Position numbers and translations under genes: made by a program
Notes under the pieces: model-generated
What the model was told of the DNA's origin: nothing
What the model saw: the letters and a program-made list of their open reading frames with translations, nothing else
Database searches by the model: none
Shown here: positions 14,295 to 32,020 of the stretch, piece after piece
Numbering within the stretch: the stretch's first letter is position 1
Layout of the letters: the number at the start of each line of letters is the position of its first letter
Assembly (NCBI GenBank): GCA_039961735.1
Contig: JABRVX010000062.1
Location: forward strand, 1-32,210
Length of the DNA: 32,210 nucleotides
From: Fimbriimonadia bacterium
Lineage (GTDB): Bacteria > Armatimonadota > Fimbriimonadia > Fimbriimonadales > JABRVX01
Reading direction: 5' to 3'

Positions 14295-16220
14295 ATGAGC
14301 ACGCATGACTTTTTGAAGCGAATCGAACAGCAACGCGGGCAAGAGATGGAGATGGGGTGGAAAGGCACCTTTGCAGACTACCTCGCCATTGTCGAGAAGA
14401 ACCCGCGGGTCGCCGACCTTGCCCACGCACGCATCTACAACATGCTGCGGGCGGCGGGCTACGACGAGGAAGAGGGACGGCCGACGCGCTACCACTTCTT
14501 CGCCGACGACCTGTTCGGCTTGGACCACAGCCTCCAGCTCATCGTCGAGGAGTATTTTGCTCCTGCTGCCAGGCGGCTGGACGTGCGCAAGCGCATTCTG
14601 ATGCTGGTCGGGCCGGTGGGTGGGGGCAAGTCCACGCTGGTTACCCTCATCAAGCGCGGGCTGGAGCGCTACTCCAAGACCGAGGGCGGGGCCGCTTATG
14701 CCATTGACGGCTGCCCGATGCAGGAAGAGCCGCTGCACCTGGTCCCCGAGGACCTGCGGGACGACTTCCGCAATCGCTTCGGTGTGATGATCGAGGGCGA
14801 CCTGTGCCCCGTTTGCCGCTATCGGCTCGAGCACGAGTGGGGCAGCAACATCCATAGCGTGCCCGTGAGGCGGATTGCCTTCTCGGAGCGGGAGCGCTGC
14901 GGCATCGGCACCTTCAAGCCTAGCGACCCGAAAAGCCAGGACGTGGCGGAGCTGACCGGGAGCGTGAACATCGCGTCGCTCACCCAGTACGGGGTGGAAT
15001 CCGACCCTCGCGCCTACAACTTCGACGGCGAGTTGAACAAGGCGAACCGAGGCGTGATGGAGTTCATCGAGATGCTCAAGGCGGACAAGCGGTTCCTCTA
15101 CGAGCTGAACACCGTCGCCGGGGAGCAGATGATCAAGGTCGGGCGGTTCGCCCTGATCTATACCGACGTTGCAGTAATTGCCCACACCAACGAGTTCGAG
15201 TACAACTCGTACTTCAACAACAAAGAGAACGAGGCGATGATCGACCGCATCTGGGTGGTGCGGGTGCCATATAACCTGAAGCTGAGCGAAGAGACGCGCA
15301 TTTACGAGAAGCTGATCAAACAGTCTCAGTTCACGGAAGGCACCGAAGACCTCACCCAGGTGCACATCGCGCCGAACGCGCTGAAGATGGCAAGCATGTT
15401 CGCCATTCTGACCCGCCTGAAGCCCAGCAAGAAGAGCGGCCTCAGCCTGATGACCAAGCTGAAGCTGTACGACGGCGAGAAGCAGGTCGGCGATTGGGAT
15501 CAGCGCCACGTACGCGAGTTGCACGAAGAGTACACCGACGAGGGCATGGTGGGCGTCTCGCCGCGGTTCATCATCAACCGCATCTCGTCGGCGCTGGTGC
15601 GGGGCAAGAAGTGCGTGAACGCGATTGACGTGCTCCGCTCGCTGCGCGACGGGCTGCACGAGTACACGAACAACGAGGAAGAGCGCAAGAAGCTGCTCGG
15701 CTTCATTGACGAGGCGCGCAAAGAGTACGACGAGACCGTGAAGAAGGAAGTGCAGCGAGCGTTCGTCTACTCCTACGAGCAGGCGGCGCGAACGCTGCTC
15801 GACAACTATTTGGACAACGTGGATGCGTTCTGCAACCGCAACAAGATGACGGACCCCATCACCGGAGAGGAAGTGGACCCGGACGAGAGGCTGATGCGCG
15901 CGATCGAAGAGCAGATCGGCGTCACGGAAAACGCGAAGCGCGAGTTCCGCGAGGGCATCTTGCGCTCGGTCGCGTCACTGGCCCGACGAGGCGAGGGCTT
16001 CGAGATTCGGAGCGACGAGCGGTTGAAGGAAGCCATCGAGAAGAAGCTGTTCTCGGATATGAAGGACATGGTAAAGATCACCACGTCTACTAAGACGCCG
16101 GACGAGGAGCAGCTTCGCAAGATCAACGAGGTGGTGGAGCGGATGGTCTCGGAGCAGGGCTATTGCGTGCACTGCGCCAACGAGACGCTCCGCTATGTGG
16201 GAACTCTGCTGAATCGCTAG
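14295..16220 (+). CDS. prkA: PrkA family AAA ATPase / serine protein kinase
   Basis: A 641-residue protein, matching the usual 630-645 of PrkA. Start ATG 14295 is preceded by GGGAGA. The N-terminal AAA domain has Walker A GPVGGGKST (residues about 106-114), and the protein ends with the PrkA C-terminal domain (VEKKLFSDMKDMVKITTSTK and EQGYCVHCANETLRYVGTLLNR-like segments). The middle shows AELTGSVNIASL, NKANRGVMEFIEMLKAD and TNEFEYNSYFNNKENEAMIDRIWVVRVPYN, all conserved in the family. PrkA proteins are cytoplasmic stress-related ATPase/kinase or protease-like proteins; in Bacillus PrkA is linked to sporulation, in enterobacteria YeaG to starvation. It heads the cluster with yhbH and spoVR. 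Confidence 0.96.
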   Translation: MSTHDFLKRIEQQRGQEMEMGWKGTFADYLAIVEKNPRVADLAHARIYNMLRAAGYDEEEGRPTRYHFFADDLFGLDHSLQLIVEEYFAPAARRLDVRKRILMLVGPVGGGKSTLVTLIKRGLERYSKTEGGAAYAIDGCPMQEEPLHLVPEDLRDDFRNRFGVMIEGDLCPVCRYRLEHEWGSNIHSVPVRRIAFSERERCGIGTFKPSDPKSQDVAELTGSVNIASLTQYGVESDPRAYNFDGELNKANRGVMEFIEMLKADKRFLYELNTVAGEQMIKVGRFALIYTDVAVIAHTNEFEYNSYFNNKENEAMIDRIWVVRVPYNLKLSEETRIYEKLIKQSQFTEGTEDLTQVHIAPNALKMASMFAILTRLKPSKKSGLSLMTKLKLYDGEKQVGDWDQRHVRELHEEYTDEGMVGVSPRFIINRISSALVRGKKCVNAIDVLRSLRDGLHEYTNNEEERKKLLGFIDEARKEYDETVKKEVQRAFVYSYEQAARTLLDNYLDNVDAFCNRNKMTDPITGEEVDPDERLMRAIEEQIGVTENAKREFREGILRSVASLARRGEGFEIRSDERLKEAIEKKLFSDMKDMVKITTSTKTPDEEQLRKINEVVERMVSEQGYCVHCANETLRYVGTLLNR

Positions 16221-16231
16221 GGCGACCCAAC

Positions 16232-16266
16232 GGCCGCCGCCGCGGTCCCGATCGGTGGCGGCGGCC
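16232..16266 (+). terminator. Strong hairpin between prkA and yhbH
   Basis: GGCCGCCGCC (16232-16241) pairs perfectly with GGCGGCGGCC (16257-16266) around a 15-base loop. No T-tract follows, so it may partly stop or stabilise prkA transcripts rather than fully terminate. Confidence 0.55.
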
Positions 16267-16322
16267 TGTCGCCCTTGCAGCAGGGTTGGGCGCAAGAGTC
16301 TGGCGCCCGGTTGGAGAAGAGG

Positions 16323-17486
16323 ATGAACGGCAAAGGTTACGCCCTGAGCGATGACCCTTGGGACCTGCACCGACGTGCCGACCGCGATCGCATGAGGCAC
16401 AACGAGAAGCTGAAAGAGGTCATCAAACAGAACCTGGGCGAGATCATCAGCCAGCAGGACATCATCACCGCGGACGACGGCAAGATCGTGAAGGTGCCGG
16501 TCCGCGGCCTGGAGCTTCCGCGCCTGCGGTTCGACCCCCACAGCGGCGAGGAGGTTGGACACGGCGAAGGCGGAACGCAGCCGGGCGACATCATCGGGCG
16601 TGCACCTGCCGACAAGACCGGGCAGGGCAAGGAGGCGGGTCAGGAACCCGGCGTGGACTTCTACGAGGCCGAGTTCACCATCGAGGAACTCGCCGAGATG
16701 GTGTTCGAGGACCTTCACCTGCCCGACCTGAAAGACAAGGGCGCGCAGAACATTCTCGGAGAAGAGGCCGACTTCAACACGGTTGCCCGGAAGGGGCTGC
16801 AGGCGAACCTCGACCGCAAGCGGACCCTGATTGAGGCATGGAAACGAAACGCCCTGGAGGGAAAGCCGGGCTGGGAGATCCGCCCCGAGGACCGCCGCTA
16901 CCGAAGCTGGGAGATGGTTCCGCAGCCTCAGCGCAACGCAGTGATCTTCGCGATGCGCGACGTCTCCGGCTCGATGGGCGAATTCGAGGCGTACATTTGT
17001 CGCAGCTTCTACTACTGGATGGTTCGCTTCCTACGCAAGTTCTACACCGGCCTGGAGATCGTGTTCATCACTTGCCACACGGAGGCGAAGGAGGTCAGCG
17101 AAGCCGACTTTTTCGCCGCGGGGGATTCGGGCGGCACGAAGTTGTCGGCTGCCTACAAGTTGACGCTGGACCTGATCGAGAAGCGATACGATAGCCGCGA
17201 GTGGAACATCTATCCCTTCCTGTTCTCCGACGGCTACAACTGGGGAGACCAGGAGTGCGTAGAGTTGGTTCGCAAGCTGCTCGACCACAGCAACCTCATC
17301 GGGTATGGCGAGATCGCGAGCGACGTGTGGAGCCAGCAACCCGGTCTCGCACCTCTCGGTCAAGCGTTCATGGACGCATTCGAGGGCGATGAGCGTATGG
17401 TGGTCGTGAAGGTGTGCAAGAAGGAAGACGTTTGGCCCGCACTCCAGGAGTTCTTTTCGAAGAGCGCGGACGCGGCACGAATCTAG
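16323..17486 (+). CDS. yhbH: YhbH/YeaH family (DUF444) von Willebrand A-like protein
   Basis: A 387-residue protein of DUF444, the standard partner of PrkA. ATG 16323 has GGAG 6 bases upstream. The N-terminal part is charged (ADRDRMRHNEKLKEVIKQNLGEIISQQDII) with a Gly-rich stretch (HGEGGTQPGD). The C-terminal half is a vWA-like domain with a MIDAS motif DVSGSMGEFE (D-x-S-x-S) after about residue 216, then FITCHTEAKEVSEADFFAAGDSGGTKLSAAY (Thr of MIDAS) and FSDGYNWGDQ. In other bacteria YeaH/YhbH acts with PrkA/YeaG under nutrient stress. It sits 102 bp after prkA and upstream of spoVR in the same direction. Confidence 0.95.
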   Translation: MNGKGYALSDDPWDLHRRADRDRMRHNEKLKEVIKQNLGEIISQQDIITADDGKIVKVPVRGLELPRLRFDPHSGEEVGHGEGGTQPGDIIGRAPADKTGQGKEAGQEPGVDFYEAEFTIEELAEMVFEDLHLPDLKDKGAQNILGEEADFNTVARKGLQANLDRKRTLIEAWKRNALEGKPGWEIRPEDRRYRSWEMVPQPQRNAVIFAMRDVSGSMGEFEAYICRSFYYWMVRFLRKFYTGLEIVFITCHTEAKEVSEADFFAAGDSGGTKLSAAYKLTLDLIEKRYDSREWNIYPFLFSDGYNWGDQECVELVRKLLDHSNLIGYGEIASDVWSQQPGLAPLGQAFMDAFEGDERMVVVKVCKKEDVWPALQEFFSKSADAARI

Positions 17487-17573
17487 TTCCCCAGCTCGAG
17501 TTCGAGCAGGCGCCTTGGGCTACGCCGAAGCACCTTGAAAACCAGGGAATCCGAAAAAAACGCACCGGCACTC

Positions 17574-17602
17574 TTGACACGGCCGGGAATGTTTGATATG
17601 CT
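17574..17602 (+). promoter_or_regulatory. Sigma70-type promoter before the PEP-CTERM gene and spoVR
   Basis: Consensus TTGACA at 17574-17579, 17-base spacer, TATGCT at 17597-17602. About 65 bp upstream of the PEP-CTERM start, so the PEP-CTERM/spoVR part may be transcribed separately from prkA-yhbH. Confidence 0.75.
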
Positions 17603-17667
17603 AAGCACATAGTTGAAATGCGCGCTTTCGGGAGTAGGCAGCCCGAGGCGCGGTTGGGAGGATGGTA

Positions 17668-18573
17668 GTGCGCCCTATGCTTGGTATGGGGTCGGTCGTG
17701 CTGGCCCCGATACTTCTTTTCTCCACGACTCTTGCCGACCAGCCGGTGTACACGAGCTCTCGAGGCTTGCCGCTGGACCCTTTCGACATGTCCAAGGGCG
17801 TCATCACCTACTCGGTGACAACCTCATGGGAGTTCGATGGCGGTGTGTCCAACCCCACGATCGTGGAGGGAGAGGCCCTAGGCTTCACTTGGGAGATCAG
17901 GTTCTCCATCTCTCAGCGAGGCGGCGCGGGCTTCATCCCTGCGATCGTGCTGAGAATGCCCGACGGTGTTTACACGCCTGGAGCACCCGTGTGGGGTCAG
18001 AACGGTGAGTGCTGGCTGGCGGTGATGGGCGACGCGGTGTTCGACTACGACCTGCCGTGGACAGTGGAGTCCGACAATGGCTTGGGTGTGGACCAGGAGC
18101 TGAGTGTCGGACCGGGTGAGATGATGGGCGAGATGTGGGCCATCGCTCACGCCGAGACCGTGTACGACCCGCGCGGCCTGGAATACTGCCGGAACTTCTA
18201 TGGCGATGGCGGTTGGATCCGTGTACGTGGGTGGATCAGGGGGATGCGCATGCCAGACATGCCGATGCACGAGCACTTCGTGATAGATGGCATGTGGGGC
18301 CACATCGAGCCGCACGGTATGTGGGGCGAGGGGCAACGCTGCTTTCCCACAGGCATCGTGCCAGACCCCGACGCCTCGACAGCCCCGTGGGAAGGAGGCA
18401 CTCTGTGGGCCCACGGCGGCAAGGGATATACGGATAACATGGCTTGGCGCTCTTTCAACGTGGTACCGGAACCGGGTTCTCTGGCAATCTTGTGCTTGGG
18501 CTTCGCGGCTCTCGGACTGAGAGGTAGGAAGCATGACACAAGCGGAACGAGAGGAACTGAACCGATGGCTTGA
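17668..18573 (+). CDS. PEP-CTERM sorting domain protein
   Basis: A 301-residue exported protein. GTG 17668 is chosen since GGGAGG ends 6 bases upstream (ATG 17662 directly abuts it). Residues 1-26 are a signal peptide (MLGMGSVVLAPILLFSTTLADQ). The body has a WEFDGGVSNPTIVEGEALGFTWEIRFS segment and many Gly, Met and Trp residues. The C-terminus carries a PEP-CTERM anchor: VPEPGSLAI, then a hydrophobic helix (LCLGFAALGL) and a basic stretch RGRK. Established: PEP-CTERM proteins are cleaved by exosortase and linked to extracellular polysaccharide. It has an unusually long tail of 14 residues after RGRK, because the gene overlaps spoVR by 41 bp in another frame. No characterised function; it is not a normal member of the prkA-yhbH-spoVR group. 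Confidence 0.85.
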   Translation: MRPMLGMGSVVLAPILLFSTTLADQPVYTSSRGLPLDPFDMSKGVITYSVTTSWEFDGGVSNPTIVEGEALGFTWEIRFSISQRGGAGFIPAIVLRMPDGVYTPGAPVWGQNGECWLAVMGDAVFDYDLPWTVESDNGLGVDQELSVGPGEMMGEMWAIAHAETVYDPRGLEYCRNFYGDGGWIRVRGWIRGMRMPDMPMHEHFVIDGMWGHIEPHGMWGEGQRCFPTGIVPDPDASTAPWEGGTLWAHGGKGYTDNMAWRSFNVVPEPGSLAILCLGFAALGLRGRKHDTSGTRGTEPMA

Positions 18574-19975
18574 CGCCATCTATGAGAAGGCGCTGGAGAT
18601 GGGGCTCGACCCATTCCCGGTGCACTTCGAGGTGGTGCCGGATCATGTCATCTACGAGCTGGGGGCCTACGGGCTCCCGGCTCGATTCTCACACTGGACC
18701 TTCGGGCGGGACTACCACCGCATGAAGACCAGCTACGAGTACAACTTGACACGCATCTACGAGATTATCTTCAACACCGATCCTTCGCAGGCGTTCCTGT
18801 TGGACAGCAACTCGATGCTGAGCCACAAGCTCGTAGCGGCCCACTGTTATGGACACAGCGACTTCTTCAAGAACAACACCTACTTCCAGCATACGGACCG
18901 CAGTATGATCGAGCGTGCGCGCCTTCACGCGGAGCGTATTAGAAAATATCAGATGGAGCACGGCCCTGAGGTAGTTGAACGCTTCCTCGACGCCGCGATG
19001 AGCATCCAGGAGCACCTGGACCCGGCAAAAATGTCTCGGCCTAACGCGCAGCCAGTAGCGGAACCCAAAGAGAACGAGCAGCCTCCCCGAGGACCTTATG
19101 ACGATATCTGGTATGTGGTGGAGGAGAAGCCTGCACCACCTGCTCGCGAGCAGCGATTCCCGCCGGAACCCGAGAAGGACCTACTACTCTTCCTGCGCGA
19201 TTACGCCCGCGATCTCGAGCCGTGGCAGCGAGACTGCTTGGAGATCCTTCGCGACGAAATGTTGTACTTCCTGCCTCAGATGCGAACCAAGATCATGAAC
19301 GAAGGTTGGGCATCCTACTGGCACGAGAAGATCCTGGAGTCCCTGCCACTTACATCGGAGGAGCATCTGGAGTTCCGTCGCATGCATAGTGCGGTGCTTT
19401 CTCCCGGGGGCAGCGTGCATCTGAATCCCTACTATGTGGGATACCAGATATTCAAGGACATCGAACGGCGCTGGAATGGAGAGCCAGACCCCGATGGTGA
19501 GCCGGAAGAAGACTGGTTGGGTAACACCATCGAGCGCCCGACCGGACAAGGACGGGAGAGGATCTTCCAGTCGCGTCTCGAGGACGACGACCAGAGCTTC
19601 CTGGGCAAGTACCTAACCGCCGGACTATGCAAGCGCATGGACCTCTTCACCTACAAAATGGAGGAGATCAACGGCGAGATGGTATGGGTGGTACAAGAGA
19701 CCGATTGGCGGAAGGTGCGTGATGCGCTCGTGGCGCAAATGACGAACCTCGGCGCACCCTATGTCACCGTGGAGGATGGCGACTTCGAACACCGAGGTGA
19801 GTTGCTGCTGCGACACCACTACGACGGTCGCCCACTGGACTTCGACTATACCGCACGTACCCTGCGCAATCTCGCCTACATATGGGGCCGGCCGGTGCAC
19901 GTGGATACCGTGTCGAATGACGAGCCGGTCCGCATTTCCTGCGACGGGGAGAACATTACGCAGACGGGGACGTAG
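18533..19975 (+). CDS. spoVR: SpoVR family protein
   Basis: A 480-residue SpoVR protein. ATG 18533 has an AGGTAGGAAG ribosome site that lies inside the PEP-CTERM gene. Conserved segments are LPARFSHWTFGRDYHRMKTSYEYNLTRIYEIIFNTDP, HCYGHSDFFKNN, FLRDYARDLEPWQRDCLEILRDEMLYFLPQMRTKIMNEGWASYWHEKI, and SVHLNPYYVGYQIFKDIERRW (near residue 305). In Bacillus SpoVR is needed for the spore cortex; in non-sporulating bacteria the homologue (YcgB) travels with prkA and yhbH and has an unassigned stress role. No spore genes appear here, so the latter is more likely. It overlaps the PEP-CTERM gene by 41 bp, suggesting translational coupling. Confidence 0.95.
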   Translation: MTQAEREELNRWLDAIYEKALEMGLDPFPVHFEVVPDHVIYELGAYGLPARFSHWTFGRDYHRMKTSYEYNLTRIYEIIFNTDPSQAFLLDSNSMLSHKLVAAHCYGHSDFFKNNTYFQHTDRSMIERARLHAERIRKYQMEHGPEVVERFLDAAMSIQEHLDPAKMSRPNAQPVAEPKENEQPPRGPYDDIWYVVEEKPAPPAREQRFPPEPEKDLLLFLRDYARDLEPWQRDCLEILRDEMLYFLPQMRTKIMNEGWASYWHEKILESLPLTSEEHLEFRRMHSAVLSPGGSVHLNPYYVGYQIFKDIERRWNGEPDPDGEPEEDWLGNTIERPTGQGRERIFQSRLEDDDQSFLGKYLTAGLCKRMDLFTYKMEEINGEMVWVVQETDWRKVRDALVAQMTNLGAPYVTVEDGDFEHRGELLLRHHYDGRPLDFDYTARTLRNLAYIWGRPVHVDTVSNDEPVRISCDGENITQTGT

Positions 19976-20071
19976 TACACGGCCCTCCGGCCCAAAAGCG
20001 CCCTTCCACGGCTTGCTGCCGACTAACCTCCATCGGTCCCTCACCACTCGCAGCGGGCAGGAATGGACGGG

Positions 20072-20119
20072 ATAGCCGGAGACGTCATGCTGCACGGCAT
20101 AGCCGGAGACGTCATGCTG
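20072..20119 (+). repeat. 21-bp direct repeat, two copies at a 27-bp period
   Basis: ATAGCCGGAGACGTCATGCTG occurs at 20072-20092 and exactly again at 20099-20119. The second copy runs into the REP-like element at 20111. Confidence 0.85.
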
Positions 20120-20135
20120 AGCCCGTCGAAGCATG
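20111..20135 (+). repeat. REP-like element, forward copy
   Basis: GTCATGCTGAGCCCGTCGAAGCATG. It matches the reverse complement of 20191-20215 at 24 of 25 bases and is a form of the widely dispersed CTTCGACAGGCTCAGC(A/G)TGAC element. Each copy is itself a partial palindrome. Confidence 0.8.
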
Positions 20136-20190
20136 ACGTCGTAGGCCACATGCTATCACACGAAGATGCTCCGGTCGCGGCTATCGCGCT

Positions 20191-20215
20191 CATGCTTCGA
20201 CAGGCTCAGCATGAC
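20191..20215 (-). repeat. REP-like element, inverted copy
   Basis: CATGCTTCGACAGGCTCAGCATGAC on the plus strand; inverted relative to 20111-20135, separated by 55 bases. Confidence 0.8.
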
Positions 20216-20452
20216 GATTCTCTCACTGCTACCGATGGCAGCCGCAGCAGTGAGGGGTGGAGAGCGACCTCTCGGAACAACGGCGCCGAGCAGACGAACG
20301 TCGAAGCCCCGATGGCTTGCCGAGCGCTAGCAGACTTACTTGCCATCGCTAAACACTGGCAGGGAGCCTTCGTGCAGGATGGCACGAAGTGGCGGCGTAG
20401 TACGATTCCAGGGAGCAGACCTTCGCCTCCCCAGCGAAAGGACGTGACAGCG

Positions 20453-21904
20453 ATGTGCCACCACAACTGCAGCGATTCGGTACATGGGATTTCCCGCCGC
20501 GACTTTCTCGTTGGGGCCGCAGTCGCAGCCGCAGCGGGACCTTATCTTCTGAGAGCCGCGAGCGCACAGGAGGCTGCCCGCCGGACACGGAGCGAGAGCC
20601 CGGCCGATTGGCCCGAGGTCAAGGTCGCCTACCTGCGCCCGCGTGACAAATACTGGCTAGGCTGGCCCGGTACCGCGTGGGACAAGAAGATGTCCGAGCG
20701 TTTTCTGACGCAATCCCGTAACCGCCTCGAGCAGCTTGCCAAGGAGCTGCGCGTTCGCCTCGAGTTCCAGCCGCAGCCGCTCTACGATGAGACGGCGGTG
20801 AACGCGTTCGTGCAGATGCTCTCGGACAGGAAACCGTCCGGGGTAGTCGTGTTCCCGCTCCACATGGATCGCTGGGGGCACGTGCGACGAATCGCCGAGG
20901 CAGGCGTTCCGACCGTCATCTATGCAGCACTCGGTATGTGCTTCACCGGTCACATCGCAGGGATCTCGCGCCAGCCGGGCGTGCACCTCATCTCCTCACC
21001 CGATCCGGACTTAAACCCCCTGCGGTTCGGGATAAAGCTTTTCCGGTCTCACCACGATGTTCGCAACTCGCGCATCGCCGTGCTGGCTGGAGACCGAACC
21101 AACGACGAGGTTCTGGAACCGTTCGGCCTCCGTATTCGCCGGCTCCCGCGCAAGCGCTTCGCCGATGCCTTCAATGCCGTTGCCGAGACCGGAGAGGTGA
21201 AGGCGATGGTGGAGGACTACCGAAAGGCCGCAGACAAGATCGTGGAGCCCTCCCAGACAGACCTCGTGAACGCCTCTCGCGCCTACTTTGCCGCACAGAG
21301 GATCATGCGCGAAGAGGACTGCAACGGCATCACGATGGACTGCCTCGGCGCCGTGTTCGAGCGGCAGATTCCCGGCCCGCCGTGCCTCGCGTGGTCGCGC
21401 CTGCTGGATGCCGGAATCCCCGCCATCTGCGAGGCGGACATCAATGCGGTGATGTCGCACACCCTGTGCTGCAGGCTGCTCGACAAGCCGGGCTTTATGC
21501 AGGACCCCGTTCCCGAGACCGTGCACAACACTTTCATCGGGGCGCACTGCGTGTGCCCGACCCGGCTAAACGGCTACGACAAGCCCCGCGAGAAGTTCAT
21601 CCTGCGCAGCCACGCGGAGTCCGATGTCGGAGTCTCGGTTCAGGTCCTGTGGCGGAGCGGACAGCCTGTTACGCTGATGCAGTTCGTGGACCCCGGCAGG
21701 ATGATCCTAGGACGGGGCAAGGTGCTGCGAAACCACCACACCCCACCCATGGGCGGATGCCGAACCTCGGTCGAGCTCGCCCTAGAGGGGCCCGCCGACA
21801 CTCGAGACACGAAGGGCTTTCATCAGCTCTTCATCTATGGCGACCACGTTCGGGACTTCCAGGCGTACGGTCAGATGTACGGCATCGTAACCGAGGCCAT
21901 CTAG
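20453..21904 (+). CDS. Tat-exported sugar-isomerase-like protein
   Basis: A 483-residue protein with ATG 20453 preceded by GCGAAAGGA. Residues about 13-40 are a Tat signal: SRRDFLVGAAVAAAAGPYLLRAASAQ. The mature part resembles the L-fucose/L-arabinose isomerase-like fold: an N-terminal Rossmann-like region (VVFPLHMDRWGHVRRIAEAGVPTVIYAALG), then RIMREEDCNGITMDCLGA, a GIPAICEADINAVMSHTLCCRLLDKPGFMQDPV block, HNTFIGAHCVCP, and GCRTSVELALEG. The ITMDCLG, CEADINA and AHC segments correspond to metal-ligand regions of isomerases. Export of such a fold is unusual; the activity and substrate are unknown. It is alone on its operon, following the REP-like repeats. Confidence 0.75.
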   Translation: MCHHNCSDSVHGISRRDFLVGAAVAAAAGPYLLRAASAQEAARRTRSESPADWPEVKVAYLRPRDKYWLGWPGTAWDKKMSERFLTQSRNRLEQLAKELRVRLEFQPQPLYDETAVNAFVQMLSDRKPSGVVVFPLHMDRWGHVRRIAEAGVPTVIYAALGMCFTGHIAGISRQPGVHLISSPDPDLNPLRFGIKLFRSHHDVRNSRIAVLAGDRTNDEVLEPFGLRIRRLPRKRFADAFNAVAETGEVKAMVEDYRKAADKIVEPSQTDLVNASRAYFAAQRIMREEDCNGITMDCLGAVFERQIPGPPCLAWSRLLDAGIPAICEADINAVMSHTLCCRLLDKPGFMQDPVPETVHNTFIGAHCVCPTRLNGYDKPREKFILRSHAESDVGVSVQVLWRSGQPVTLMQFVDPGRMILGRGKVLRNHHTPPMGGCRTSVELALEGPADTRDTKGFHQLFIYGDHVRDFQAYGQMYGIVTEAI

Positions 21905-22004: not shown

Positions 22005-23342
22005 ATGAACGACTACCGCAAACTGGGCGAATTGCTGGTATCGAAGGGGTTGATCAGCAGCCTTCAGCTATCCATCGCACTCGCGGCCCAGCGCACCTCC
22101 AGTAGGCGGCTGGGAGAGATTCTGGTCGAACGCGGCTTCGCCACCGAAGCCGCCATCGCGCACTGCCTGGCCGAGCAGTACGGCTATCCGTTGCTGAACC
22201 TAGACCAGATGCGGGCACAGCCAGAGGCTTTGGCCCTGATCCAGCCGGAAACCGCCCTCACGATGAGGGTACTGCCGCTCGCCGTATCGGGGTCGACGCT
22301 GGAATGCGCCATCTGCGATCCGCTGGACATCCAAGGCACCGACGCCATTGCCCGAATGACAGGACGAAGTCTGGCGGTACGGATCGCCTCTCAGTCCGAC
22401 CTGCTGACGGCCATTCGCTTGGCCTACGGGCTTGCCGAGTCCCTTCCGGAAGGCGTCTTCTCGCGTGTGCAGGCCCTGCCCAATCGGTTTCGTAATGCCG
22501 AGCCTCGCCGTTGTGTGGATTCGGTTGCGCTCTTCGACGCGTGGGACGAGGTTCTCGAGCGACCCGTCACCCTCGCCTCCGTACCCGAGCAGGCACCCGA
22601 GGCCACGCATCAGTTCCTATTGGCCAAAGCAGCGGCGCGAGTGCACTCCGATACGGTCGCTGCAGTCTACGACTGGTTCCCGTCCGAGGGCTATCGCTGG
22701 ACGGTCTTCGAACACCTCGAAGGCGAGAACTTGCAGCACGTGCTTCGGACCCGAGGTGCCCGCTCGATTGCGCAGGCGACCCAGCTCGTAGCAGCCCTGG
22801 CGGATGGGGTGGATGCGCTGAACCGCAAGGGGGGGTCGTGCGATATCGTGTGCCCGGCGAATGTGTTGATCACGCCCAACGGGCCGCTGTGGGTGCCTCT
22901 GGTTCGCCCTCCGGCGGAATACCTTGCACCCGACAGAGCCGGGCAAGTGGGAGCGGCGACAAGCATGGTCTTCCCTCTAGGCACCCTGCTGTGGCACTGC
23001 GTGACGGGAAGCAACCCGCACGAGAGTGGCGCGAGCGGCCGCCACTGGACGCATCAGTATGATGATGACCAGCGGCTACCCTTAGCCCTGCGCGAGATTC
23101 TGGCACGGTGCCTCGATGCTGATCCGGAGCGTCGGTTCACCTCGCCTCTGCAGCTCAGCCAGGTTCTACGCTCCTACAGTTGGTCCGCAGAGATGCCGGA
23201 GGCTCCCTCTCCGCCAATCGAAGCCGACCAGGACCGGGACCAGCTTCTCGACCTAGTGGTGGTGCACGGGGAAAGGCCGAGCCGCGAGCCTTTCTGGCGA
23301 CGTTGGCTTGGGAGGCGCGATCGCGGCGCGAGGGCAGCCTGA
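22005..23342 (+). CDS. MshEN (c-di-GMP-binding type) domain fused to a pseudokinase
   Basis: A 445-residue protein; ATG 22005 with GAGGGGAG 6 bases upstream. Residues 6-29 (KLGELLVSKGLISSLQLSIA...Q) and 35-58 (RLGEILVERGFATEAAIAHC...Q) are the two 24-residue motifs, separated by exactly 5 residues, that bind c-di-GMP in MshEN domains. MshEN normally precedes the ATPase of PilB/MshE/GspE. Here no ATPase follows. Residues about 170-400 look like a protein kinase: VHSDTVAAVYDWF, VFEHLEGENLQHVLRTRG, CDIVCPANVLI (catalytic-loop-like with D280), EYLAPD, LGTLLWHCVTGSNPHE and LDADPERRFTSPLQL. The VAIK lysine is absent (VTLASV), the DFG is missing, so it should not phosphorylate. The C-terminus is basic. 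Likely an adaptor coupling c-di-GMP to the ATPase 33 bp downstream; inference. Confidence 0.82.
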   Translation: MNDYRKLGELLVSKGLISSLQLSIALAAQRTSSRRLGEILVERGFATEAAIAHCLAEQYGYPLLNLDQMRAQPEALALIQPETALTMRVLPLAVSGSTLECAICDPLDIQGTDAIARMTGRSLAVRIASQSDLLTAIRLAYGLAESLPEGVFSRVQALPNRFRNAEPRRCVDSVALFDAWDEVLERPVTLASVPEQAPEATHQFLLAKAAARVHSDTVAAVYDWFPSEGYRWTVFEHLEGENLQHVLRTRGARSIAQATQLVAALADGVDALNRKGGSCDIVCPANVLITPNGPLWVPLVRPPAEYLAPDRAGQVGAATSMVFPLGTLLWHCVTGSNPHESGASGRHWTHQYDDDQRLPLALREILARCLDADPERRFTSPLQLSQVLRSYSWSAEMPEAPSPPIEADQDRDQLLDLVVVHGERPSREPFWRRWLGRRDRGARAA

Positions 23343-23375: not shown

Positions 23376-24182
23376 ATGAGGACGATTGCAGTTACGAGCG
23401 GAAAGGGTGGCGTCGGGAAGACCAACCTGTCGGCGAACCTGGGTCTCGCTCTCGCCTCGCTTCAGAAGCGCGTGGTGATCTTCGATGCGGATCTGGGCCT
23501 TGCCAATCTGGACATCGTACTGGGAACGCGGGCCGCGTTCAATCTGCAGAACGTGGTGTCGGGGGAGAAGCGGCTCTTAGACGTGGTCGCCACGGGACCC
23601 GGCGGCGTCCGATACATCGCAGGCGGATCTGGTGTAGAGACCCTTGTCAACCTGAGCGGGCCCCAGCTCGAGTCGTTCCTGATGGGTCTGGAGGAGCTCC
23701 AAAGCTCCACCGACTACCTCATCTTCGATACCGGCGCAGGGGTGGACGCGCACGTGATGATGTTCCTGGAGGCCGCCGACGAGACGCTGCTGGTCGCCAC
23801 ACCCGACCCAGCGAGCCTCACGGACGCGTACGCCACCGCCAAGGTGCTTTACGGACGAAAGCCGGATGCCGTGGTGAGGCTGGTGGTGAACATGGCGGAG
23901 GACGACGCCCAGGCCTCCGCCCTGTACGTGAAGCTGCAGTCCATCGTCAAGCAGTTTCTCGGTAAGTCGCTGCAGTACGCAGGCGCGATCCGTCACGACC
24001 CGAAGGCCATCCAGTACATCCGGCAGCGGAAGCCGTTCCTTCTGGCCGATCGGGGGCTCCAGGCTTCTCGGGGCGTTCTCACGATAGCCTCTGTCATCGC
24101 TGGACAGGCTATAGAACAGGAGCAGGGCGGGATCGTGAACCGCCTACGTTCGGTGTTTGGGCTCGAACGAAGGACGGCTTAG
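23376..24182 (+). CDS. FleN/FlhG/MinD-family ATPase
   Basis: A 268-residue deviant-Walker ATPase. Residues 9-16 are GKGGVGKT, followed by VVIFDADLGLANLDIVLG (Walker A' region), and DYLIFDTGAGVDAHVMMFLEAADETLLVATPDPASLTDAYATAKVL, the typical Walker B and FleN/MinD switch region. The C-terminal IVNRLRSVFGLERRTA may be a short membrane-targeting helix like MinD's. Members set number and position of flagella (FlhG/FleN), pili or division sites. No flagellar gene is in the window; the pairing with the MshEN-pseudokinase gene 33 bp upstream suggests pole or pilus positioning. The stop overlaps that of the convergent DivIVA-like gene by 4 bp. Confidence 0.9.
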   Translation: MRTIAVTSGKGGVGKTNLSANLGLALASLQKRVVIFDADLGLANLDIVLGTRAAFNLQNVVSGEKRLLDVVATGPGGVRYIAGGSGVETLVNLSGPQLESFLMGLEELQSSTDYLIFDTGAGVDAHVMMFLEAADETLLVATPDPASLTDAYATAKVLYGRKPDAVVRLVVNMAEDDAQASALYVKLQSIVKQFLGKSLQYAGAIRHDPKAIQYIRQRKPFLLADRGLQASRGVLTIASVIAGQAIEQEQGGIVNRLRSVFGLERRTA

Positions 24183-31792: not shown

Positions 31793-32020
31793 CCCCCTTG
31801 CCCCCTTCCCGGGCCTGTTGAAAAAGCCCATAACTGCCCGACATGGGGGCGACTCATGCCACCGACTTCTGCCCCAACGCTCGTGGCGCCCGATAGCACG
31901 CTTCGACAGGCTCAGCGTGACGGTACGAGCGACTAGCGACGGCCGAAACAGGATCAGGATGTGTCGGAGGGGATGTCACTCCGAGGGAGAAGGTGAGCGC
32001 GGCGCGGCGCCCCCAGACGG
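31793..32020. other. Intergenic region with a dispersed REP-like repeat
   Basis: About 228 bases. CTTCGACAGGCTCAGCGTGAC at 31901-31921 is a third copy of the REP-like element seen at 20111 and 20191. No gene recognised. Confidence 0.6.
31901..31921 (+). repeat. REP-like element, third copy
   Basis: CTTCGACAGGCTCAGCGTGAC, same orientation as 20191-20215 on the plus strand and differing from it by one base in this core. Confidence 0.75.

Follow-up and report, generated by a model that had tools for sequence, protein, structure and literature searches.

What might a protein do that joins a domain for binding c-di-GMP to a kinase fold from which the catalytic residues have gone? The question is raised by a gene in the window analysed here, a stretch of 32,210 nucleotides from a genome of the Fimbriimonadales (Armatimonadota). 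An initial annotation, made from the letters of the DNA, described the product as a c-di-GMP-controlled adaptor that replaces the usual fusion of the MshEN domain to an ATPase. The features that bear on this proposal are collected in Table 1. The open reading frame was borne out at its full length, and its product, which we call P0001, has full-length orthologues within the same order that are 34-46% identical to it.

Table 1. Positions of the genes, domains and motifs discussed in the text (window coordinates; residues are those of P0001).
Feature	Position	Strand	Basis or remark
MshEN-pseudokinase gene (P0001, 445 aa)	22005..23342	+	open frame, Pfam/NCBIfam, full-length orthologues
Predicted c-di-GMP motif 1, residues 6-29 (KLGELLVSKGLISSLQLSIALAAQ)	22020..22091	+	VcMshE ligand positions, shuffle test
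Predicted c-di-GMP motif 2, residues 35-58 (RLGEILVERGFATEAAIAHCLAEQ)	22107..22178	+	VcMshE ligand positions
MshEN C-terminal subdomain, residues 59-146	22179..22442	+	PF05157 match, 6.5e-19
Predicted pseudokinase domain, residues 161-390	22485..23174	+	PknB-like fold in model; HRD Asp, DFG Asp, VAIK Lys and activation loop absent
Degenerate catalytic loop CDIVCPAN (C279-N286), equivalent to HRDxKPxN	22839..22862	+	alignment via G208 homologue to PknB
DRDQLLDLV motif, residues 410-418	23232..23258	+	also in kinase-less homologues; motif table, conservation
Basic, aromatic tail, residues 426-445 (PFWRRWLGRR...)	23280..23339	+	typical of kinase-bearing forms only; sequence table
FlhG/FleN-type ATPase gene (P0002, 268 aa)	23376..24182	+	without N-terminal FlhF-activating extension; FleN/FlhG matches
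DivIVA-domain coiled-coil protein gene, 193 aa	24179..24760	-	PF05103 1e-15, 58.3 bits vs cut-off 28

The MshEN domain

The two motifs near the N terminus, to which the initial annotation had drawn attention, are each 24 residues long, are separated by a spacer of five residues (30-34) and fit the relaxed form of the RLGxxLVxxGxIxxxxLxxxLxxQ motif of MshEN domains. When P0001 was shuffled 20,000 times, no copy contained two such motifs at the same spacing. Profile searches also identify the domain as MshEN; besides the Pfam match given in Table 1, P0001 scores 65.8 bits against the NCBIfam c-di-GMP motif NF053729 (cut-off 38), and PilB and MshE proteins of known structure match it at 1e-17 to 2e-21.

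The residues that contact the ligand in VcMshE (PMC5013675) served as the reference for P0001. In motif 1, K6, L7, G8, L22, L26 and Q29 align with R9, L10, G11, L25, L29 and Q32 of VcMshE, and in motif 2, R35, L36, G37, I51, L55 and Q58 align with R38, L39, G40, L54, L58 and Q61. Ten of the 12 are identical and the other two are conservative replacements; these two, Lys6 for R9 and Ile51 for L54, both fit the relaxed MshEN motif (PMC5013675). The ligand residues are mostly kept in the 13 kinase-bearing orthologues of P0001, and the same genome encodes six GGDEF proteins. P0001 probably senses c-di-GMP through this domain.

The MshE/PilB/PilF-type ATPases of type IV pili and type II secretion systems have the same N-terminal c-di-GMP domain with the same motif spacing. 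P0001 differs from them in that no secretion ATPase is fused to it: MshEN and kinase are its only domain matches, a RecA-like domain is missing, and the ATPase, of the FlhG type, is a separate protein.

A kinase fold without catalytic residues

The kinase-like region noticed at the outset is supported by structure prediction. Foldseek aligns the AlphaFold model of P0001 to PknB of M. tuberculosis (TM 0.74 on the target, E 4e-13), other Hanks-type kinases match as well, and the model confidence over the domain is mostly good. The Pfam Pkinase match, at 1.3e-6, lies under Pfam's cut-off. The catalytic loop was aligned through the less degenerate homologue from G208, a protein that itself matches PknB at 2e-41. 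In this alignment, Asp280, previously taken for the catalytic-loop aspartate, stands at the position of the HRD Arg and is not conserved, and Ile281 occupies the position of the catalytic Asp, so that this identification has to be withdrawn. The reported lack of the VAIK Lys and of the DFG motif proved correct.

These losses are not peculiar to P0001. Among the 17 kinase-bearing homologues, counting those from G208 and the paralogue described below, the HRD Asp and the DFG Asp are absent in every one, the VAIK Lys is retained in G208 only and the activation loop is deleted in 15. Asn286 of the catalytic loop is retained in most of the homologues, and in loci L011-L014 the domain degrades further. 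The loss of catalytic motifs in all homologues rules out an active kinase. Having the kinase fold and lacking all three of the VAIK Lys, HRD Asp and DFG Asp, the domain is, by sequence and model, a pseudokinase rather than a Hanks-type Ser/Thr kinase, and a more degenerate one than had been thought.

The conservation of the parts follows the same lines. Mean majority identity, computed among 12 kinase-bearing orthologues, is highest in MshEN_N (0.75) and in the FlhG-type partner (0.70), and the pseudokinase (0.48) is the least conserved folded part. The DRDQLLDLV motif reaches 0.66, compared with 0.32 for the linker that precedes it. Amphipathic membrane tails were also sought: the amphipathicity of the P0001 tail is not significant, its hydrophobic moment being no better than that of shuffled sequences, and the same holds for the moment of the P0002 tail, which is of an RLRSVFG type conserved in the kinase-bearing loci.

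Since the binding residues are retained, the catalytic residues are gone in every homologue and MshEN_N is the best-conserved part, P0001 is best read as a c-di-GMP-responsive adaptor whose kinase domain is dead, and to this extent the original proposal stands. The ATPase has not simply been replaced, however, as an FlhG-type gene follows.

The FlhG/FleN-type partner

This gene had been overlooked, as had the DivIVA-domain gene, the C-terminal motif and a paralogous pair. It is the next gene after that of P0001, in frame with it across a gap of about 33-36 bp, and its product, P0002, matches FleN at 8e-50, FlhG at 6.5e-48 and E. coli MinD at 7e-16. The fold agrees with that of FlhG (4rz2) with a TM of 0.93 on the target (Foldseek), and the deviant Walker A motif reads SGKGGVGKT. 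Both in sequence and in fold P0002 is nearer to FlhG/FleN than to MinD/ParA. An assignment to MinD was ruled out, FlhG/FleN being far closer and P0002 also falling short of the NCBIfam MinD cut-offs. The protein begins MRTIAVTSGKGGVGK, with zero residues ahead of strand 1, and thus lacks the N-terminal extension through which FlhG stimulates FlhF (PMC7226244).

Counted from gene coordinates over the 113 genomes of the order, the pair is present in 44 genomes, and the FlhG-type gene lies directly 3' of the MshEN gene and on the same strand in 45 of the 47 family loci; one of the two unpaired loci is at a contig edge. The intergenic gaps in the loci read range from -4 to 36 bp, some of these values depending on the start codon chosen. 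The FlhG-type gene of the P0002 type is a conserved partner that is separate from the MshEN protein. FlhG-type genes of the same family also occur without an MshEN partner in G158 (L118), G127 (L117) and G021 (L119); in G158, the preceding gene codes for a protein of ~396 aa that is unrelated and matches no Pfam family.

Gene adjacency is by itself no proof of a complex between P0001 and P0002. A structure prediction in which the two were fused into one chain through the in-frame gap gave no interface support (pTM 0.47); the MshEN and FlhG domains came out well, the tail with a pLDDT below 50. As regards binding of FlhG by the C-terminal tail of P0001, this one fused prediction, with the tail not ordered, is negative or uninformative.

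A proposed mechanism

We hold, with roughly even confidence, that P0001 and P0002 form a two-gene module in which P0001, as an adaptor responsive to c-di-GMP, serves a positioning ATPase of the FlhG type. We infer the ligand binding, the physical interaction of the two proteins, the direction of regulation and the target, as follows. The MshEN domain of P0001 would bind c-di-GMP, and the kinase-fold domain, carrying out no phosphotransfer, would serve as a spacer or docking surface. P0001 would work with P0002 and probably bind it, perhaps through the DRxxLL motif, with the tail or the MshEN domain as other candidate contacts. Through P0001, c-di-GMP would alter the ATP-dependent dimer/membrane cycle of P0002, and P0002 would determine the site or the number of the polar surface machines that are built, such as flagella or type IV pili. 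A DivIVA-type marker of the pole or septum possibly takes part.

This last step is suggested by the gene that converges on the FlhG-type gene. Its 193-aa product has an N-terminal GYxxxEVxxxL-type motif and a coiled coil, as in DivIVA. The same convergent neighbour is found in G019, G010, G004 and G154, which makes five of the ten kinase-bearing loci with neighbourhoods long enough to test; it was found in none of the kinase-less loci examined. The canonical DivIVA of this genome is encoded elsewhere (C44). It is a rather doubtful extension of the adaptor reading that the genes make up a previously undescribed polarity module, in which c-di-GMP directly governs an FlhG/MinD-type positioning ATPase through a dedicated MshEN-pseudokinase adaptor near a DivIVA-type landmark and does so beyond flagella.

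Flagella, pili and the pair

The pair might instead represent the flagellar FlhG function, relocated away from the flagellar cluster, with P0002 being the FlhG of this lineage and P0001 linking the number of flagella to c-di-GMP in the manner of FleQ with FleN. The flagellar cluster on contig C20 contains FlhA, an FlhF-like gene adjoining it and, by eye, look-alikes of FliF to FliJ, and has no FlhG; apart from P0002 and its degenerate paralogue, the genome encodes no FlhG-like protein, and the nearest solved relatives of P0002 are FlhG and FleN. Against this, P0002 is without the FlhF-stimulating extension (PMC7226244), and the genomes of family f2 have a strong FlhF but no FlhG-like match at 1e-12. 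FlhA is present in 34 of the 36 genomes with the pair and in 43 of the 52 without it (counted by hand among genomes at least 90% complete), and FlhA is missing from two well-covered genomes that carry the pair, G134 and G154. A strict flagellar link is thus unsupported by the distribution of FlhA, and a flagellar role is possible, not demonstrated; we regard such a relocation of FlhG as unlikely, if worth keeping in mind. The FlhF-like gene itself (G000:C20:63146-64162; L077 9147-10163) scores 105 bits, the FlhF equivalog cut-off being 174.

The persistence of the pair in genomes without FlhA would also be compatible with a role in type IV pili or type II secretion, with P0001 as a free-standing MshEN domain that takes the place of PilB's own N-terminal domain or modulates it, and P0002 localising the machine. 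PilB-type MshEN ATPases are available for this in nearly every genome of the order, including the present one, where four further MshEN matches lie in long open frames. We consider this improbable; no pilus or secretion gene was found beside the pair in the neighbourhoods read.

Loss of the kinase domain

The history of the family bears on what the pseudokinase contributes to the adaptor. One clade has MshEN proteins of ~180-215 aa without the kinase domain, and these retain the MshEN domain and a C-terminal [DE]RxxLLxx[ILV] motif. In a maximum-likelihood tree of the FlhG partners, with G208, a genome of another order, as the outgroup, all 18 short forms fall into one clade (95/89) and the kinase-bearing forms, including that of G208, lie outside it. 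Therefore, the pseudokinase was lost once, to judge from the tree, with the MshEN domain and the DRxxLL motif remaining beside FlhG. As the kinase-less clade retained the rest, the pseudokinase is not the essential part.

Several of the kinase-less MshEN domains (L017-L020, L057-L071) are without the motif-1 Gln, having K, R, S, H or A in its place. This observation would suggest that c-di-GMP binding may be weaker in the kinase-less clade.

A second, paralogous pair of an MshEN-pseudokinase and an FlhG-like protein is encoded on contig C10 of the same genome (G000, locus L002, 1459-2823 and 2833-3657). In the sensor, the ligand residues L, Q, G and Q are replaced by E, S, S and L, and the GKGGVGK of the ATPase has become GGRTGLGR. 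Both partners have decayed, as would be expected if sensor and ATPase work together.

Two further explanations do poorly against this record. It is hardly credible that the kinase-fold domain retains nucleotide binding, or shows some unusual activity, and forms the output of a c-di-GMP switch: the fold is intact and Asn286 is mostly kept, but the Lys and both Asp residues are absent, the activation loop is deleted, and the part in question is weakly conserved, decays in L011-L014 and was lost altogether in one clade. That P0001 is a decaying remnant of an ancestral MshEN-kinase, with no present function, is very improbable too; the kinase part is lost step by step over the order and the paralogous pair is degenerate, which might point that way, but all orthologues have open frames, MshEN_N and FlhG are strongly conserved and the gene order is retained across families.

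With its natural series, from a PknB-like ancestor to a pseudokinase and on to complete loss of the domain, the family makes it possible to tell apart what the pseudokinase and the sensor each contribute. A scan of genome contigs gave only five loci, all in Armatimonadetes and all of them already found by the genome searches. In G208 (L116, 6022-8163), the MshEN-pseudokinase is longer, having an additional C-terminal region and a probable transmembrane segment, and the FlhG-type gene lies upstream of it, not downstream.

Relation to known systems

Access of a second messenger to positioning ATPases of the MinD/FlhG type is known in few cases. In the FleQ-FleN system of Pseudomonas aeruginosa, a c-di-GMP receptor acts with an FlhG-family ATPase (PMC10723142), and FleN and FlhG are the best solved relatives of P0002. 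However, FleQ is a REC-AAA+-HTH transcription factor with another c-di-GMP site, whereas P0001, which has no DNA-binding domain, relies on MshEN and a pseudokinase. In cellulose secretion by Escherichia coli, BcsE-BcsQ(-BcsR), a c-di-GMP sensor made of degenerate enzyme domains recruits a MinD/FlhG-like ATPase (PMC7439463). BcsE uses degenerate REC-GGDEF modules for this, and P0001 shows no relation to BcsE in Pfam or NCBIfam scans. The FlhF-FlhG system shares the FlhG-type ATPase core with its MinD-like motifs; P0002 differs in that its partner is not FlhF, it has no extension to activate FlhF and its gene is outside the flagellar cluster. Most likely, then, the adaptor-FlhG pair resembles FleQ-FleN and BcsE-BcsQ by analogy, yet is built from unrelated parts.

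The initial annotation knew of no described protein with this architecture. A 2016 paper on MshEN domains (PMC5013675), however, lists MshEN together with a Ser/Thr kinase domain, that is, an MshEN and a kinase-fold domain in one protein as in P0001. What may set the P0001 family apart is that all its kinase domains are catalytically dead and that its genes keep an FlhG neighbour. Our literature search found no link between FlhG and MshEN beyond passing mention, and titles and abstracts on pseudokinases and c-di-GMP yielded no Hanks-type example to the point. The MshEN-kinase class is not new, but the papers searched contain no description of a kinase dead across the whole family, of the constant pairing with FlhG or of the loss series. 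The pair in the Fimbriimonadales suggests a new route for c-di-GMP control over the placement of surface machines. Belonging to a little-studied phylum, it also offers a small, apparently soluble system that is easy to test and whose input is likely to be c-di-GMP.

Other features of the window

PrkA, DUF444 and SpoVR genes stand in a row at 14295-19975, forming a cluster of the conserved PrkA-YeaH-SpoVR type, and a PEP-CTERM protein gene (17662-18573) is inserted between DUF444 and SpoVR. A repeat, GTCATGCTGAGC..GTCGAAGCA, occurs at 20111-20133 (+), 20193-20215 (-) and 31899-31921 (-), the chance expectation being 0. Two of the copies are inverted within the 5' part of the open reading frame at 20063-21904, and the true start of this TAT-signal protein is probably further downstream.
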